Assembly: GCF_030689685.1 (NCBI RefSeq)
Contig: NZ_JAUYEY010000022.1
Location: 1-64,000, forward strand
DNA from: Polaromonas sp.
GTDB taxonomy: Bacteria; Pseudomonadota; Gammaproteobacteria; Burkholderiales; Burkholderiaceae_C
Length of the DNA: 64,000 nucleotides
Direction: 5' to 3'
The notes below the pieces were generated by a model. That model saw nothing but the letters and a program-made list of their open reading frames with translations. It did no database searches and had not been told where the DNA came from. Below are positions 9,554 to 16,664 of this stretch, piece after piece. Made by a program: the position numbers and the translations under genes. How positions within the stretch are numbered: the first letter of the stretch is position 1; every line of letters starts with the position of its first letter.

Positions 9554-10219
9554 TCAGATCACGCCCAGCCAGCAAGCGCGCTGAATCGCCGCCATTTTGT
9601 TGTCCACCCTGAGTTTGGCCATGGCGTTTGCCAGGTGGTAGGTGACGGTGCGGTCGGCGCAACCCAGGCGCTCGGCGCTCTGTTTGGCCGTCAGGCCCTC
9701 GAAAGCCAGTTCCAGGCATTCGCTTTCACGCGGGCTGAGCGGACTGCTGGCGGCGGCCAGGGTGCGCTTGAACAGGGGCCAGATGTTGAGCGCGGACCAG
9801 ACCAGGGCGGCAGCTTCAGCCCGGTCATGAAACTGGCGCGGGCTGAACATGAAACATTCGAAGGCGCGCCCCGAAGGCAGGGGAAACTCAACCCGCACCA
9901 CGCTCTGGAAACCGTGGGCCAGCCACAACAGACGCCAGCGGTCGCCGCGAGTGTCCGAATTGCCAATGTGCTGCCAGGCCACCATCGGTGCATCCGACTC
10001 CCGCCACGGCGCGCCAAAATCCCGACTGCCTGCCAGCGCAGACGCCGCATCCAGAAAACGGGGTGGATGAACCGCCGCCACCAGCCGGGACTGGCGCTGC
10101 CCGAAGGGGTCAGGACCCAGGACAACCACCGCCTCGACTGCATAGTCACGCAGGGCGGAAATCCAGTCCGCTAGCATGCTGTCCAGCGTAATACTGTCAA
10201 AGTTGACAGGTGATGGCAT
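9554..10219 (-). CDS. LuxR-family transcriptional regulator, next to the cqsS/cqsA-like locus
   Basis: A 221-residue regulator. Residues 1-150 form an unassigned sensory region, plausibly autoinducer- or GAF-like. The C-terminal 60 residues form a LuxR/GerE helix-turn-helix (LSPRESECLELAFEGLTAKQ, then CADRTVTYHLANAMAKL). ATG 10219 is preceded by GGAG at about 11 bases. It is transcribed away from the CqsS-like kinase gene. A lux-box-like palindrome (10193-10210) overlaps its first codons, which suggests autoregulation. No luxI gene is visible nearby, so it is a solo LuxR or reports the CqsA signal in some way. Function is inferred from family and position. Confidence 0.85.
   Translation of the reverse strand: MPSPVNFDSITLDSMLADWISALRDYAVEAVVVLGPDPFGQRQSRLVAAVHPPRFLDAASALAGSRDFGAPWRESDAPMVAWQHIGNSDTRGDRWRLLWLAHGFQSVVRVEFPLPSGRAFECFMFSPRQFHDRAEAAALVWSALNIWPLFKRTLAAASSPLSPRESECLELAFEGLTAKQSAERLGCADRTVTYHLANAMAKLRVDNKMAAIQRACWLGVI
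10193..10210. promoter_or_regulatory. Lux-box-like palindrome between luxR and the cqsS-like gene
   Basis: ACTGTCAAAGTTGACAGG fits the CTG-N10-CAG lux-box pattern, and 14 of 18 bases match the palindrome upstream of the cqsA-like gene (13937-13954). It lies within the first codons of luxR and about 50 bases upstream of the likely cqsS start. From there it could control both divergent units. Binding by the adjacent LuxR protein is an inference. Confidence 0.55.
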
Positions 10220-10257
10220 ATTCGGTTTTTCTCCAGAACTGTGACAATGTGCGAGCG

Positions 10258-11625
10258 ATGTTCCAAGACCTATTCATGACTTCCGGAGTACCTGCCAGGA
10301 TCAAGCGGATGATTCACGGAGTCTGGCGTCACGCGGGCCTGTCGGGCCGCCTGTCGGCCCGGATCAAGGCCGAACTTCAGGAGCAGATGGTGCTTATTTT
10401 GCACCCATCACCCTGGCGGCTGCGCTGGCTGGGACTGTTCACGCTGGTGGGCCACCCGCTGTTTGGCTGGATCTGGGGACACTGGCTGCCCCAGCCCTAT
10501 GAGCACCCCGGCCTGCGCGCGGTGATGGGCGCCCTGGGCCTGCTGCTGATTTCCGAGAGCATCGCCCATGACCCGTCCAGCAAACTCTCGGCGCGCGTCT
10601 TCTCGCTGGTGGCATGGCTGCAGTTGCCGCTGTTTTTCAGCTGGATGTATCTCTGCAACAGCGGCAACATGGTCTGGCTCGCCAGCTTTTGCGCGATGGT
10701 GCTGATTTATTACCACTTGACCGACTGGCGGGTTGCCACGCTGGGCACCGTCGGCGGTGTGTTGCTGGCCCAGACGCTGTTTCATTTTTTCGGACCGGCG
10801 GTTGTTCCCATGGAGCAGCAGCAGTGGACCATCAATGCGGTGGTGATTGTTTTTTCCTGGTCCAGCGCCCTGCTTCTGGGCCTGTCGTCGGCCAATCTGC
10901 GGCGCGAGCAGCTGCAACACACACTGACCACCATGGGAATCATGGCCCACGAATTGCGCACGCCCCTGGCCACCATCTCGCTGATCGGCGACGCGGTGCG
11001 CAATGAAAACCAGGGCATCCGGGAGGCAGAAGGCACCCAGCGGCTGGACCAGCTGGTAGTACGGTTGCATGGCCTGGTGCGCAACATGAACCAGCAGATC
11101 GACACCCAGATCGCCAACGCCAGCCTGCTCCGCCTGCCGATGCACCGGGAGACCGTGACGGCTGCCGCGCTGCTGCGCAATGTGGTCAAGGACTACCCCT
11201 ACCGCAACTCGCGCGAACGCGAGAGTGTCACTCTGGTGCTGCGCAAGGATTTTTCGTTCGAGTCGTCCTACCGGCTGTTCGCCCAGGTCATCAACAATCT
11301 GCTGAAAAACGCCTTCCGCTCTCTGGCCGCAGTCAGCTCGGCGCCCAAACCCGGCGACCTGCGCATTGAAGTGGGCGTGCTCAACGGCTCCGGGCGCATT
11401 GTCATCACCGACCAGGGTGTCGGCATCCCGTCCGAACTGCAAACCCGCATCTTCGAGCCCTTTTTCTCCACCGATCACGGCACCGGCCACGGCCTGGGTC
11501 TGGCTTTCTGCCAACAAGTGGTGCAGAGTGCCGGCGGAACCCTACGTGTCAAGTCCGAGCCCGGCCGTGGCGCCATCTTCATCATCGAGCTGGCGCCTGT
11601 CCAGCAGGGCCTGTTCAGGCCCTAA
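10258..11625 (+). CDS. CqsS-like membrane sensor histidine kinase (alpha-hydroxyketone receptor family)
   Basis: An inner-membrane kinase of about 455 residues. The N-terminal half has six or so hydrophobic helices and resembles Vibrio CqsS, including an IWGHWLPQPYEHPGLR segment like the WEYWFPQSYENLGLR of CqsS. It is followed by the H-box MAHELRTPL, an N-box (NNLLKNAF) and G-boxes (DQGVGIP, GTGHGLGLAFC). Unlike CqsS it ends after the ATPase domain and has no receiver; that partner is the next gene. The start is uncertain: a GTG at 10210 would overlap luxR, and ATGs at 10258, 10276 and 10309 are possible. The ligand is presumably made by the CqsA-like enzyme encoded at 12618-13874. Confidence 0.88.
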   Translation: MFQDLFMTSGVPARIKRMIHGVWRHAGLSGRLSARIKAELQEQMVLILHPSPWRLRWLGLFTLVGHPLFGWIWGHWLPQPYEHPGLRAVMGALGLLLISESIAHDPSSKLSARVFSLVAWLQLPLFFSWMYLCNSGNMVWLASFCAMVLIYYHLTDWRVATLGTVGGVLLAQTLFHFFGPAVVPMEQQQWTINAVVIVFSWSSALLLGLSSANLRREQLQHTLTTMGIMAHELRTPLATISLIGDAVRNENQGIREAEGTQRLDQLVVRLHGLVRNMNQQIDTQIANASLLRLPMHRETVTAAALLRNVVKDYPYRNSRERESVTLVLRKDFSFESSYRLFAQVINNLLKNAFRSLAAVSSAPKPGDLRIEVGVLNGSGRIVITDQGVGIPSELQTRIFEPFFSTDHGTGHGLGLAFCQQVVQSAGGTLRVKSEPGRGAIFIIELAPVQQGLFRP

Positions 11626-11643
11626 CCAACCCGTCCACTGTCC

Positions 11644-12621
11644 ATGAGTTTTCCGCTGTTTCACCGCCCCGGTGCCATCGTTTTCCTCGATGATGATCCC
11701 GGCTATCTCGAAATGCTGGCCATGGTGTTGCCCCGTCAATGGCACATCAAGCTCTACCTGCGGCCGCAGGCCTGCATCAACCAGCTGCAGCAGGAGCCGC
11801 CGCTGTGGGAAGCCGATGCGTGGGCGCAGCAGGAAATCATCGACAACTGGCGTGCAGGCGCTCCGCTGATCCCGCAGATCCTGCAGTACTGGGCCGCGCA
11901 GGATCAGCGTTACGACCTGAGCCAGGTTTGCGTCTTTGACTATGCGATGCCCGGCATGGACGGCCTGCAGGCTTTGTCCGAACTCACGGACTGGCCAGGT
12001 GGCCGGATACTCCTGACCGGGCAGGCCGACGAACATGTGGCGGTCAGCGCCTTCAACCGGGGACTGATTGACCAGTTCATTGCCAAACAGACGCCCGACA
12101 TTTCGCAACACCTGATCTCGGTGGTGCAGCGCATGCTGGACCGGCCCCAGTTGCGGCATTCGCAGATCTGGCGCACCGCACTAACGCAACCGCAACATGC
12201 CCTGCTGCAGGTGCCCTCGGTGGCGCGGCAACTGACCAGCGTGGCCTCTGACCAGTGGATCGAACATGTGGTGATCGGTCAGCCCTTCGGCATCCTGGGC
12301 ATGAACGCCGAAGGCCTGGTGAGCTGGCTGCAACTGGAGCCCGCCTCCGGGCTGGCAGAGTTGGCCGAGCTGGCCGAATCTCAGGGAATGGACGCCACCA
12401 GCGCAGCCGACATCCGAAACGGCCGCCAACTGGTGGATCTGGAGCTGCAACAAGCCCTGCAAAGACCGGGCCCGCCCAGGATGGCACCCGCCTTTTCCAT
12501 TGGTCACGAAGGATCCATGCTGGCCGCCATGTTCCCGCTGGAACTTCCTGCCAGCGAGCGGCCATGGACCGGTTACGCCAAGTGGCTCAAGAAGAACGGC
12601 CCCCGCAAGGTGCAGGACTAG
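11644..12621 (+). CDS. Stand-alone response regulator with an atypical receiver domain
   Basis: A 325-residue protein starting 18 bases after the kinase gene and so probably its phosphorylation partner. The receiver has the acidic cluster FLDDDPG (residues 15-20), phospho-acceptor Asp99 in VFDYAMPGMDG, Thr125 in LLTGQAD and Lys148. Asp17 to Asp99 is about 82 residues against about 45 in ordinary receivers, so some 40 extra residues (around 45-90) are inserted. The region after residue 190 matches no output domain I know and shows no DNA-binding motif. Output could be by protein contact. Its stop overlaps the stop of the convergent cqsA-like gene by four bases. Confidence 0.8.
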   Translation: MSFPLFHRPGAIVFLDDDPGYLEMLAMVLPRQWHIKLYLRPQACINQLQQEPPLWEADAWAQQEIIDNWRAGAPLIPQILQYWAAQDQRYDLSQVCVFDYAMPGMDGLQALSELTDWPGGRILLTGQADEHVAVSAFNRGLIDQFIAKQTPDISQHLISVVQRMLDRPQLRHSQIWRTALTQPQHALLQVPSVARQLTSVASDQWIEHVVIGQPFGILGMNAEGLVSWLQLEPASGLAELAELAESQGMDATSAADIRNGRQLVDLELQQALQRPGPPRMAPAFSIGHEGSMLAAMFPLELPASERPWTGYAKWLKKNGPRKVQD

Positions 12622-13874
12622 GCTTGCGCCGCGCGCGCGCGCCGGGCGATCGGCCAGTCCCAGGGCCTGACCAGCGGCGCCACCTCGCGCGCCACCGCCT
12701 CTACATGGCCGAGTTCGGCATCTGTCAGTGCCGCATGCAGTGTCAGCCGCACCATGGCACGGTTGCGGCTGGTGGCCGGTGCGCAAAACACCGCGCCGAA
12801 CACGCCACGTTCTTCCAGGTGGTCGCGCAGCACCATGGTGTCCGGTTCGGTGCCGGCCTCCAGCGAAATGATCTGCTCCGTCCCCTGGTGGATCGGGTAA
12901 CCCATGTCGGACAGACTGCTGCGCAAGCGCCGGGTGTGGCTTTGCAGGCGGTCCCGCTGTTCATCGCGCTGGCCGATCACCGCCAGCGTCGCACCGAGGC
13001 CGGCAATTTCGTGCGGCAACAGGCAGGAGCTGAAGATGTTGGGGAAGCTGGAGCTCAGGATGTAGTAACGCAACTCCGCCGGCGCAGTGAAAAATCCGCC
13101 GCGCCCGGCAAAGGCCTTGGCCAGGCTGGCCGTGATGAAGTGAACCCTGTCGGTGAGCCCAAGCGCCGCGCACAGCCCCCTGCCACCGGGGCCGTGGGTT
13201 CCCAGCGAATGCGACTCATCCACCACCACCATGCAACCGTGCCGCTCGGCAACGTCCAGCATCTCGCGCAGCGGGCACAAGGCGCCAGTGGTGCTGTAGA
13301 CCGAATCCACCACCACCACCCCTGATCCGTGGCGCGCCAGCATCCGGTCCAGATGCGCCGGATCATTGTGGCGAAATGCGTGCGCCGGTGCACGCGCCGC
13401 GTGGGCACCTTCCCACAGCGAGGTGTGTGCCAGTGTGTCCAGGTACACCGGCGTCTGGGCATCGGCAATCGACTGCAGCAGACCAACATTGGCGGCATAA
13501 CCGGACTGGCAGACAAAGCCGTCCTCCTTGCCGACCCATGCAGCCAGCGCGTTTTCCAGCACGCGGGCCGGGTGTTCGCCATGCACAAACACGCCCGACT
13601 GGATCACGAACTCACGGTCGTGCCGCAAGGCCGCGATCTGGGCGCCAACGATGTGTGGATGGCCGGTCACGCTGAGGTAATCGTTCCCATCGAGCCGTAC
13701 GGCGTCAGGACCCGGAGGTCGGCCATGCAGGATGAAGCGCCCTCCTACTTGCTGCTCCCAGCGCGGCAGGAATTCGCGGCGTATGCGTTCCCTCAGGTGA
13801 GCAGAAAGTGTGGGATTGACCGCAGCTGGTGTAACGGTTGGGAAAGAAGATCGCTCAACAAATTCAAGTTGCAT
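12618..13874 (-). CDS. cqsA: CqsA-type alpha-hydroxyketone autoinducer synthase
   Basis: A PLP-dependent enzyme of the alpha-oxoamine synthase / class II aminotransferase fold, 418 residues. It would join an acyl-CoA to an amino-acid-derived unit to make a diffusible alpha-hydroxyketone-type signal. It matches Vibrio CqsA closely from memory: CQSGYAANVGLLQSI (122-136), LAHTSLWEGA, VVVDSVYSTTGALCPL, VDESHSLGTHGPGG (218-231) and the PLP lysine K253 in TASLAKAF. The conserved YSTTG and SLGTHGP segments separate it from KBL and BioF. A lux-box-like palindrome lies 63 bases upstream of its ATG. Which acyl chain it uses cannot be read. Confidence 0.92.
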   Translation of the reverse strand: MQLEFVERSSFPTVTPAAVNPTLSAHLRERIRREFLPRWEQQVGGRFILHGRPPGPDAVRLDGNDYLSVTGHPHIVGAQIAALRHDREFVIQSGVFVHGEHPARVLENALAAWVGKEDGFVCQSGYAANVGLLQSIADAQTPVYLDTLAHTSLWEGAHAARAPAHAFRHNDPAHLDRMLARHGSGVVVVDSVYSTTGALCPLREMLDVAERHGCMVVVDESHSLGTHGPGGRGLCAALGLTDRVHFITASLAKAFAGRGGFFTAPAELRYYILSSSFPNIFSSCLLPHEIAGLGATLAVIGQRDEQRDRLQSHTRRLRSSLSDMGYPIHQGTEQIISLEAGTEPDTMVLRDHLEERGVFGAVFCAPATSRNRAMVRLTLHAALTDAELGHVEAVAREVAPLVRPWDWPIARRARAAQA

Positions 13875-13932
13875 GGTGCTACCTTGTGAAAAAGTAACAC
13901 CATTGAAGATGAATTCAAAAAATTTGGGGCTG

Positions 13933-13958
13933 GACCCCTGTCAACATTAACAGGGGTC
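13933..13958. promoter_or_regulatory. Lux-box-like inverted repeat upstream of cqsA
   Basis: The arms GACCCCTGT (13933-13941) and ACAGGGGTC (13950-13958) are perfect reverse complements. The central 18 bases, CCTGTCAACATTAACAGG, fit CTG-N10-CAG and resemble the palindrome at the luxR start. The centre is about 72 bases before the cqsA start codon, a position suitable for an activator site. It could alternatively be a hairpin or dispersed repeat. Confidence 0.55.
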
Positions 13959-15542: not shown

Positions 15543-16664
15543 CTAGTGCTGTCGCCACGGCAACCCGCGAAACCGCCAGCCGCCACGTACGCCACGGTGC
15601 GCCTCGGCGTCCGGGTCACCTTCAAAGCCTTCAAGAATGTTGTAAGCCTCCAGGCCCAGCTCGGTGGCGCGTTTGGCCGCCGTGATCGAACGCACCCCGC
15701 TGCGGCACAACATGACAGCCTTGCCGCTAGCCGGCACGGCGGCCTTCAGGTCTTCGTCGAACTGCGGGTTCATGGCCATGCCAGGCCACTGCTTCCAGGC
15801 CAACGCCACCGCACCCGGCACAAAACCGACCCATTCGCGCTCGGCATCGCTGCGCACATCAATCAGCACGGCCTGGCCGGCCTGCCACCACTGGCAGGCC
15901 AGCTCGGGCGACACATTGCCTGCATAGGCCTCGGCGGGCTGGACCTGCAGCAAGGTGGCGCCGTCGGCATCCTGGCGGCCGCTGCCCAGACCCGAGTTCT
16001 GGTTGGCGGGTAGCGCTTCATCCATGCGCGCGGGTCGCGGCAGTTGGAGCTGCGACATAGTGGCCACAAATTCGGCCAGGCTTTTGCCGGCAATGCGCCC
16101 ATTGCCAGCCTTCTCTGCGGCAATCGTGGAATGCGTCCGCCCCTGGTAGTCGTGACATGGCCAGACCACGGTGTCATTCGGCAAGGTGAACAACCGTTGC
16201 GTGATGCTGTGGTACAGCGCTTCGGCGCTGCCTGATTGAAAGTCGGTACGGCCACAACCATTGATGAGTAGGGTGTCGCCAGTAAAAAGATGCTCGCGCC
16301 AGAGATAACTGACGCTGCCGGCGGTGTGGCCCGGCGTATGGATCACCGTGATCTGCTCACTGCCCACCCGCAGCAGATCGCCATCCTTGAGCTGGCGCGC
16401 AGCGGTCGCAATGCCACAACCTTCCGGCGCCACCGTCTGCGCCCCCGTGTGCTCGGCCAGTTGCCCCGCGCTGGTGATGTGGTCAGCATGGGCATGGGTT
16501 TCCACCGTCCACCGCAGCTTGAGCCCATGCACCCCGAGCACGGCGAGATCGCGCTCAAGTTGCTGATCCACCGGGTCGATGATGAGTGCCTCGCGCGTCA
16601 CTGGATCAAACAACAAGTAGGTGTAGGTGCTGGAGGCAGGGTCAAAAAGTTGGAGCGGTTTCAT
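15543..16664 (-). CDS. Persulfide dioxygenase-type metallo-beta-lactamase fused to a rhodanese domain
   Basis: The protein has about 373 residues. The N-terminal half is an ETHE1/Blh-like MBL domain with THAHADH as iron-binding motif, HTPGHTAGS and LFTGDTL, and would oxidise glutathione persulfide to sulfite. The C-terminal rhodanese domain has the sulfur-carrying Cys in LCRSGVRS and would pass sulfane sulfur to or from the oxygenase. I start at ATG 16664, where the domain begins; the frame extends upstream to 16757 without conserved sequence. Natural fusions of these two activities are known. A role in sulfide or thiol detoxification is likely. Confidence 0.87.
   Translation of the reverse strand: MKPLQLFDPASSTYTYLLFDPVTREALIIDPVDQQLERDLAVLGVHGLKLRWTVETHAHADHITSAGQLAEHTGAQTVAPEGCGIATAARQLKDGDLLRVGSEQITVIHTPGHTAGSVSYLWREHLFTGDTLLINGCGRTDFQSGSAEALYHSITQRLFTLPNDTVVWPCHDYQGRTHSTIAAEKAGNGRIAGKSLAEFVATMSQLQLPRPARMDEALPANQNSGLGSGRQDADGATLLQVQPAEAYAGNVSPELACQWWQAGQAVLIDVRSDAEREWVGFVPGAVALAWKQWPGMAMNPQFDEDLKAAVPASGKAVMLCRSGVRSITAAKRATELGLEAYNILEGFEGDPDAEAHRGVRGGWRFRGLPWRQH

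Follow-up and report, generated by a model that had tools for sequence, protein, structure and literature searches.

Gene clusters of the lqsA/lqsS type have been named in Polaromonas, and some clusters contain lqsR, according to the accessible part of PMC3376566. LqsR/PhcX and the lqs and phc clusters have been mapped across Proteobacteria, and the accessible part of that survey places Hydrogenophaga among the genera with phcX/lqsR beside phc genes (PMC10653808). Both papers, in the same parts, give the function of the C-terminal half of the LqsR family as unknown, diguanylate cyclase activity not being detected (PMC3376566, PMC10653808). The transcription factor LvbR of Legionella is regulated by LqsS, as stated in the available text of PMC11237717. 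Here we analysed a 64,000-nucleotide stretch of Polaromonas sp. DNA (contig NZ_JAUYEY010000022.1, positions 1 to 64,000; the window), in which positions 9554..13958 carry an alpha-hydroxyketone (AHK) quorum-sensing locus with a divergent luxR gene. Because the Polaromonas lqs clusters and the Hydrogenophaga phcX/lqsR are in print, the AHK part of the locus adds one more example to a known kind, and the claim of the initial annotation that such a system was undescribed in a Comamonadaceae-like bacterium is not supported. What is new in the locus is the LuxR-type gene: no link between LuxR and lqs-type clusters was found in searches of the open-licence literature. Judged from sequence, the locus is probably a complete Lqs/Jqs-type AHK module in which the LuxR-type protein serves as DNA-binding output, acting on the synthase, luxR itself and exoproteins.

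All four genes that the initial annotation had placed within one locus (luxR, kinase, lqsR-type regulator and synthase) were confirmed. The features are as follows.

9554..10219, minus strand: luxR-type regulator, 221 amino acids (aa); N-terminal acyl-homoserine lactone (AHL)-receptor/GAF-like domain at about 9-157, GerE helix-turn-helix (HTH) at 160-214
10193..10210, minus strand: lux-box-like palindrome in luxR codons 4-9, CCTGTCAACTTTGACAGT
10241..10249, minus strand: conserved element CATTGTCAC, probably the -10 region of luxR
10210..11625, plus strand: LqsS/CqsS-type membrane histidine kinase without receiver
11644..12621, plus strand: response regulator of the LqsR family with D99 as phospho-acceptor and an LqsR-like output half
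12618..13874, minus strand: AHK autoinducer synthase (LqsA/CqsA/JqsA), pyridoxal phosphate (PLP) lysine K253
13902..13907, minus strand: TTCAAT hexamer at a fixed spacing of 41-42 nt to the box, a candidate promoter element or start region
13935..13956, minus strand: lux-box-like palindrome 5' of the synthase, CCCCTGTTAATGTTGACAGGGG

The synthase scored 567.5 bits against the curated AHK synthase model NF005526 (cut-off 428) and under the cut-off of each of the curated BioF, KBL and ALAS models, and its K253 aligned with the PLP lysine of CqsA. Placement among BioF or KBL enzymes, which would have refuted the initial annotation, was rejected by these curated models rather than by a KBL/BioF tree. 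By family, the synthase is predicted to make an AHK from acyl-CoA. The kinase (471 aa) has a CqsS-type membrane sensor and no receiver. Its sensor domain matched the LqsS/CqsS type with hhalign (E 1e-31 and 9e-16), the kinase type of LqsS itself being that given in PMC3376566. A kinase unrelated to CqsS, the other refuting condition of the initial annotation, was rejected by this match. The kinase open reading frame (ORF) overlaps the luxR start, and window 10210-10387 is a doubtful N-terminal part; since the extra codons aligned only in close Polaromonas and a few others, the true start is probably downstream of 10210, with an in-frame ATG at codon 60 (10387). The response regulator, homologous to LqsR over its full length, has the receiver Asp (D99) and the LqsR output fold, and no DNA-binding domain is recognised in it. 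The Vibrio arrangement, a hybrid kinase with a fused receiver and no separate LqsR, was not found here. By gene content the locus is of the Lqs/Jqs type and not of the Vibrio CqsA/CqsS type, because the kinase lacks a receiver and a separate full-length LqsR homologue is present. Of the label "CqsA/CqsS-type" in the initial annotation, AHK quorum sensing is thus retained, backed by the NF005526 match and the CqsS-type sensor domain, and the CqsA/CqsS assignment is replaced.

We then consider the LuxR-type protein. A GerE HTH was present in 47/47 members of its family. The AlphaFold model (mean pLDDT 84.4, first eight residues low-confidence) matched complete AHL receptors in fold searches, with the same overall fold; other folds also appeared at middling Z. 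None of the 47 members matched PF03472 (Autoind_bind) even at E ≤ 1, and a classical AHL receptor was rejected on this ground despite the same fold. We take the protein as a divergent LuxR solo, because the AHL-receptor fold comes without a PF03472 match. AHL receptors have six conserved pocket residues, a DP pair among them. The DP motif was found in 10/10 canonical receptors of the host family and was absent at the aligned place in this LuxR, which retains P-x-x-W, in an N-domain alignment that is weak. No LuxI was found in the host genome, but the positive control was also silent and the absence is thus not established. This LuxR could itself be a receptor for the AHK, or for some other small molecule, which it would bind directly in the cytoplasm, parallel to the kinase-LqsR relay and forming a two-receptor system with it; we consider this somewhat unlikely, given the missing PF03472 match, the missing DP motif and the LuxR-LqsR pairs without a synthase that are described next.

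A set of 66 related loci was collected by similarity to the synthase of the window, and these loci are therefore close relatives. In 64 of them a luxR orthologue (identity 61-89%, truncated in one case) stands next to the kinase in divergent orientation; in the remaining two, L069 and L087, the contig ends before the luxR position. The kinase lay within the synthase cluster in 65 of the 66 loci, the other being interrupted by a contig end. Two contigs from metagenome-assembled genomes, L027 (labelled Brevundimonas) and L079 (Pseudoxanthomonas), carry a Comamonadaceae-type locus; their bins probably are contaminated or bear the wrong label.

An even sample of 200 host-family genomes was searched for the synthase (E ≤ 1e-70), the LuxR (E ≤ 1e-15) and the LqsR-type response regulator (E ≤ 1e-12), which were detected in 26, 28 and 34 genomes, respectively. 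All 28 LuxR genomes carried the response regulator, and 23 also carried the synthase. In the other five (G055, G069, G070, G162, G175), luxR and the response regulator gene were adjacent in every case: they were divergent in G055, G162, G175 and G069 (G175 and G069 belong to the same genus) and shared a strand in G070, with only ~30% identity for both proteins. In the 13-14 kb fetched from these five genomes, neither a kinase nor a synthase homologue was found. The pairs occupy three places on the response regulator tree, with L119 within a clade whose loci are complete, L120-L122 grouped with further incomplete loci, and L123 deep on a long, unsure branch. A fusion of response regulator and LuxR, considered for 553-aa ORFs in L121 and L122, was rejected, as tblastn placed the response regulator gene on the opposite strand of the first half, divergent from luxR. 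The occurrence of the pair without kinase and synthase is the most telling evidence for a link between LqsR and LuxR.

Three synthase genomes lacked the LuxR (G009, G093, G129); the synthases of G093 and G129 are divergent (37-48% identity). The AHK system of G009 (L124, L143) is dispersed, with the synthase and kinase-lqsR on separate contigs, luxR not found and the box missing. In G070 and G176, an LqsR-type regulator 59-62% identical was present (L141, L142), and kinase, synthase and window-type LuxR were not found in the fetched 14 kb.

In 300 genomes of the host order, with both profiles at E ≤ 1e-18, the response regulator was detected in 20 genomes and the LuxR in three, all of which belong to the host family and carry the response regulator. 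Outside the host family there were 18 response regulator loci (17 genomes; L128, L130, L148-L163), 10 of them with kinase, response regulator and synthase together; a window-type LuxR N-domain was found in 0/18, although a few of these loci are interrupted by contig ends. More than one kind of LuxR gene neighbours LqsR-type regulators, because a different LuxR matching PF03472 follows the response regulator in G367 (L128), and PF03472-matching LuxR genes lie ~1.2 kb from it in G132 and G035 of the host family. These PF03472 luxR genes beside or near an LqsR-family regulator (L128, L145, L146) apparently represent a separate LqsR-LuxR association.

It is also conceivable that the LuxR controls the synthase and itself, unconnected to LqsR, the neighbours sharing location only. 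The six of 34 response regulator genomes without LuxR (G009, G035, G112, G129, G132, G176) favour this explanation and also count against the reading that we prefer; however, the response regulator in every LuxR genome of both samples, together with the adjacency in all five synthase-less genomes, makes it improbable.

The lux-box operator is an 18-22-bp CTG/CAG dyad near quorum-sensing genes that is bound by a LuxR protein. Alignment of 65 synthase upstream regions (the window and 64 loci) yielded the palindrome CCCTGTCA-N4-TGACAGGG, which fits the lux-box type in form and placement and is a putative operator. When L027-L092 minus L040, which has 38 upstream bases, were scored against this pattern, it was present with ≤3 mismatches in 64/65 loci (40 perfect, 24 with one to three; L066 has four), and the best match in 20 base shuffles per locus averaged 6.5 mismatches, with an overall minimum of 2. 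For the window, 0.05 matches with ≤2 mismatches were expected, and the synthase site at 13935-13956(-) was observed. A second window match to the pattern, with two mismatches, lies at 16141-16160. The distance from the box centre to TTCAAT was 41 or 42 nt in 61/61 loci with both elements. None of 23 synthase homologues without this LuxR had the box with ≤3 mismatches (L129 and L130 have four). The synthase of L124 is nested among LuxR-positive synthases, with L090 (support 96/87), its box is absent and luxR was not found in the G009 assembly (89% complete), so that joint loss of luxR and box is the simplest reading.

A second box lies inside luxR. Codons 4-9 (P-V-N-F-D-S) read CCT GTC AAC TTT GAC AGT, and the 18-bp pattern was found in these codons with ≤3 mismatches in 74 of 76 rows, two of which, L040 and L233, probably represent one contig. 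Residues P4, N6, F7 and D8 were invariant in 47 rows. P4 was encoded by CCT in 69/70, and CCT makes up 8.9% of prolines in the luxR gene family; F7 was encoded by TTT in 69/69 versus a family background of 34.5%. These two codons were the most extreme of 67 invariant columns. In L120-L122 the residues are altered (PVKSDS, PVRTAS), and the DNA arms CCTGTCA and TG(A/C)CAG are largely kept. Selection at the DNA level would be the simplest reason for the frozen codons, because CCT and TTT are fixed and the arms persist where residues change. The probable -10 hexamer of luxR is followed by the box at a distance of some 34-51 nt, a position that suggests self-repression of luxR. The candidate sites before the synthase and inside luxR suggest a possible route of the signal to the chromosome.

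The exact 18-mer was found in 18/28 LuxR-positive and 5/172 LuxR-negative genomes of the host-family sample, and a reversed control pattern in 1/200. LuxR-positive genomes contained 25 exact sites away from the synthase, of which 24 were examined (L199-L222, all but that of G162); by heuristic gene calls, 16 were outside ORFs, 14 of these ≤150 bp upstream of an ORF. The host genome (G000) has five sites at ≤1 mismatch. The first three belong to the synthase, luxR and a type I secretion system (T1SS) operon encoding an ABC exporter, HlyD and a giant RTX protein; in this operon (L235, G000:C29) a perfect box at 12955 lies 116 bp before the exporter gene, and the RTX protein exceeds 2700 aa. A canonical AHL-type LuxR solo (PF03472) and a small lipoprotein-like gene flank a one-mismatch box (L234, G000:C81:2337-2354), and cross-talk between the two LuxR regulators is possible there. 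The fifth site falls in the 3' end of a contig 1 ORF and is probably due to chance. Four genomes (G042, G047, G105, G164) have a site before the gene for a transporter of FhaC/ShlB type, assigned by Pfam in two of them and by similarity in the other two; an FhaB-like giant protein follows in G042, G105 and G164, those with downstream DNA fetched. Other box sites precede unrelated genes. In the LuxR-less G098 (L223) an exact box precedes the gene for an exporter related to that of the T1SS operon (38% identity). In the LuxR-negative G165, the first of two box sites is beside a true luxI/luxR pair.

Binding of the palindrome by another factor, either the LqsR-type regulator or an AHL-type LuxR, is very unlikely: although response regulator and LuxR co-occur, a canonical solo adjoins one host box and the G165 box adjoins an AHL luxI/luxR pair, the exact box was found in 0/6 genomes with the response regulator and no LuxR and, in a sample of 60 genomes, in 0/12 with PF03472 and no LuxR, only the host among the nine LuxR-positive genomes of that sample has a PF03472 receptor (E ≤ 1e-20), four of the remaining eight carry the exact box, and LqsR lacks a recognised DNA-binding domain.

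Several further observations weigh against a LuxR that acts through these boxes as the output of the AHK module. Ten of the 28 LuxR-positive genomes lack the exact box. Six of these have a synthase, three with 2-3 mismatches at its locus, L232 with four at the right distance, L228 without a usable site and L233 cut by a contig end. The Fisher tests of the association between box and LuxR ignore the relatedness of genomes and overstate its certainty. Eight of the 24 further exact sites were inside ORFs by the same heuristic calls, and the canonical solo of the host genome stands beside one of its five boxes. Distance (32-53% identity) could by itself account for the loss of an upstream site in 22 of the 23 synthase homologues without this LuxR; the only close one is L124 (62%, from the 89% complete genome), and L127 is under the synthase cut-off. 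The luxR-internal box was missing in L073 and L123. S9 was AGT in 44/70 versus a background of 10%, which the box does not explain; because AGT is enriched without need from the box, a translation-start effect may add to the codon bias. In the kinase/luxR intergenic region no conserved palindrome was seen, only the GACAAT element.

We nevertheless favour LuxR as the DNA-binding output of the module. By family, the membrane kinase would sense the AHK and phosphorylate the LqsR-type regulator, which probably relays the signal to LuxR. From here we infer the LqsR-to-LuxR step, the binding and the sign of regulation: a LuxR dimer would bind the palindrome, probably as an activator at the synthase, which would close a feedback loop, and probably as a self-limiting roadblock in its own first codons, just downstream of its own promoter. 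It would also act at a few other promoters, including that of the T1SS operon with the giant RTX protein in the host genome. The joining of the kinase-regulator relay with LuxR, proposed in the initial annotation, is backed by synteny, co-occurrence and the shared DNA site. More tentatively, phosphorylated LqsR may switch a LuxR of AHL-receptor fold; the AHK relay and a lux-box regulon would then be fused, the operator dual-coded in luxR, and the LqsR-LuxR pair able to stand alone after loss of synthase and kinase.

A conserved DNA-binding neighbour with a candidate operator beside an LqsR-type regulator makes LqsR output directly testable in environmental bacteria. The candidate targets of the AHK system in the host family are the synthase of the system itself and exoproteins of the T1SS/RTX and two-partner secretion types. 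If the proposed relay is correct, AHK/two-component and LuxR/lux-box quorum sensing, classes normally treated apart, would be joined.

The locus shares with Legionella Lqs (LqsA/LqsS/LqsR) an AHK synthase, a membrane sensor kinase and a separate LqsR-fold regulator; in the window, however, the kinase-regulator pair is convergent with the synthase, hdeD does not lie between them, and a divergent luxR and lux-box sites are added. LvbR of Legionella has a LuxR-type HTH and is located outside the lqs cluster. Janthinobacterium, also a betaproteobacterium, has adjacent synthase, kinase and regulator genes (JqsA/JqsS/JqsR), as given in the accessible part of PMC3566124, the main text of which does not mention LuxR; comparable loci fetched from other Burkholderiales lack the window-type LuxR. 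With the PhcX/LqsR family of Ralstonia, Cupriavidus and Hydrogenophaga the locus shares an LqsR-family regulator, which in some of those genera is coupled to phc genes, according to the accessible part of PMC10653808; by a term count in the literature listing, that paper does not mention LuxR. The likeness to Vibrio CqsA/CqsS lies in the synthase fold and the sensor-domain motif, but the CqsS-like kinases in L135-L138 have 681-729 aa and no separate response regulator, whereas the window kinase lacks a receiver and a separate response regulator is present. LuxI/LuxR AHL systems and LuxR solos resemble the locus in the receptor-like fold, the GerE HTH and a lux-box-type dyad near the synthase gene; it differs from them in a synthase of a different signal class, an N-domain that is not PF03472, and a response regulator as the neighbour.

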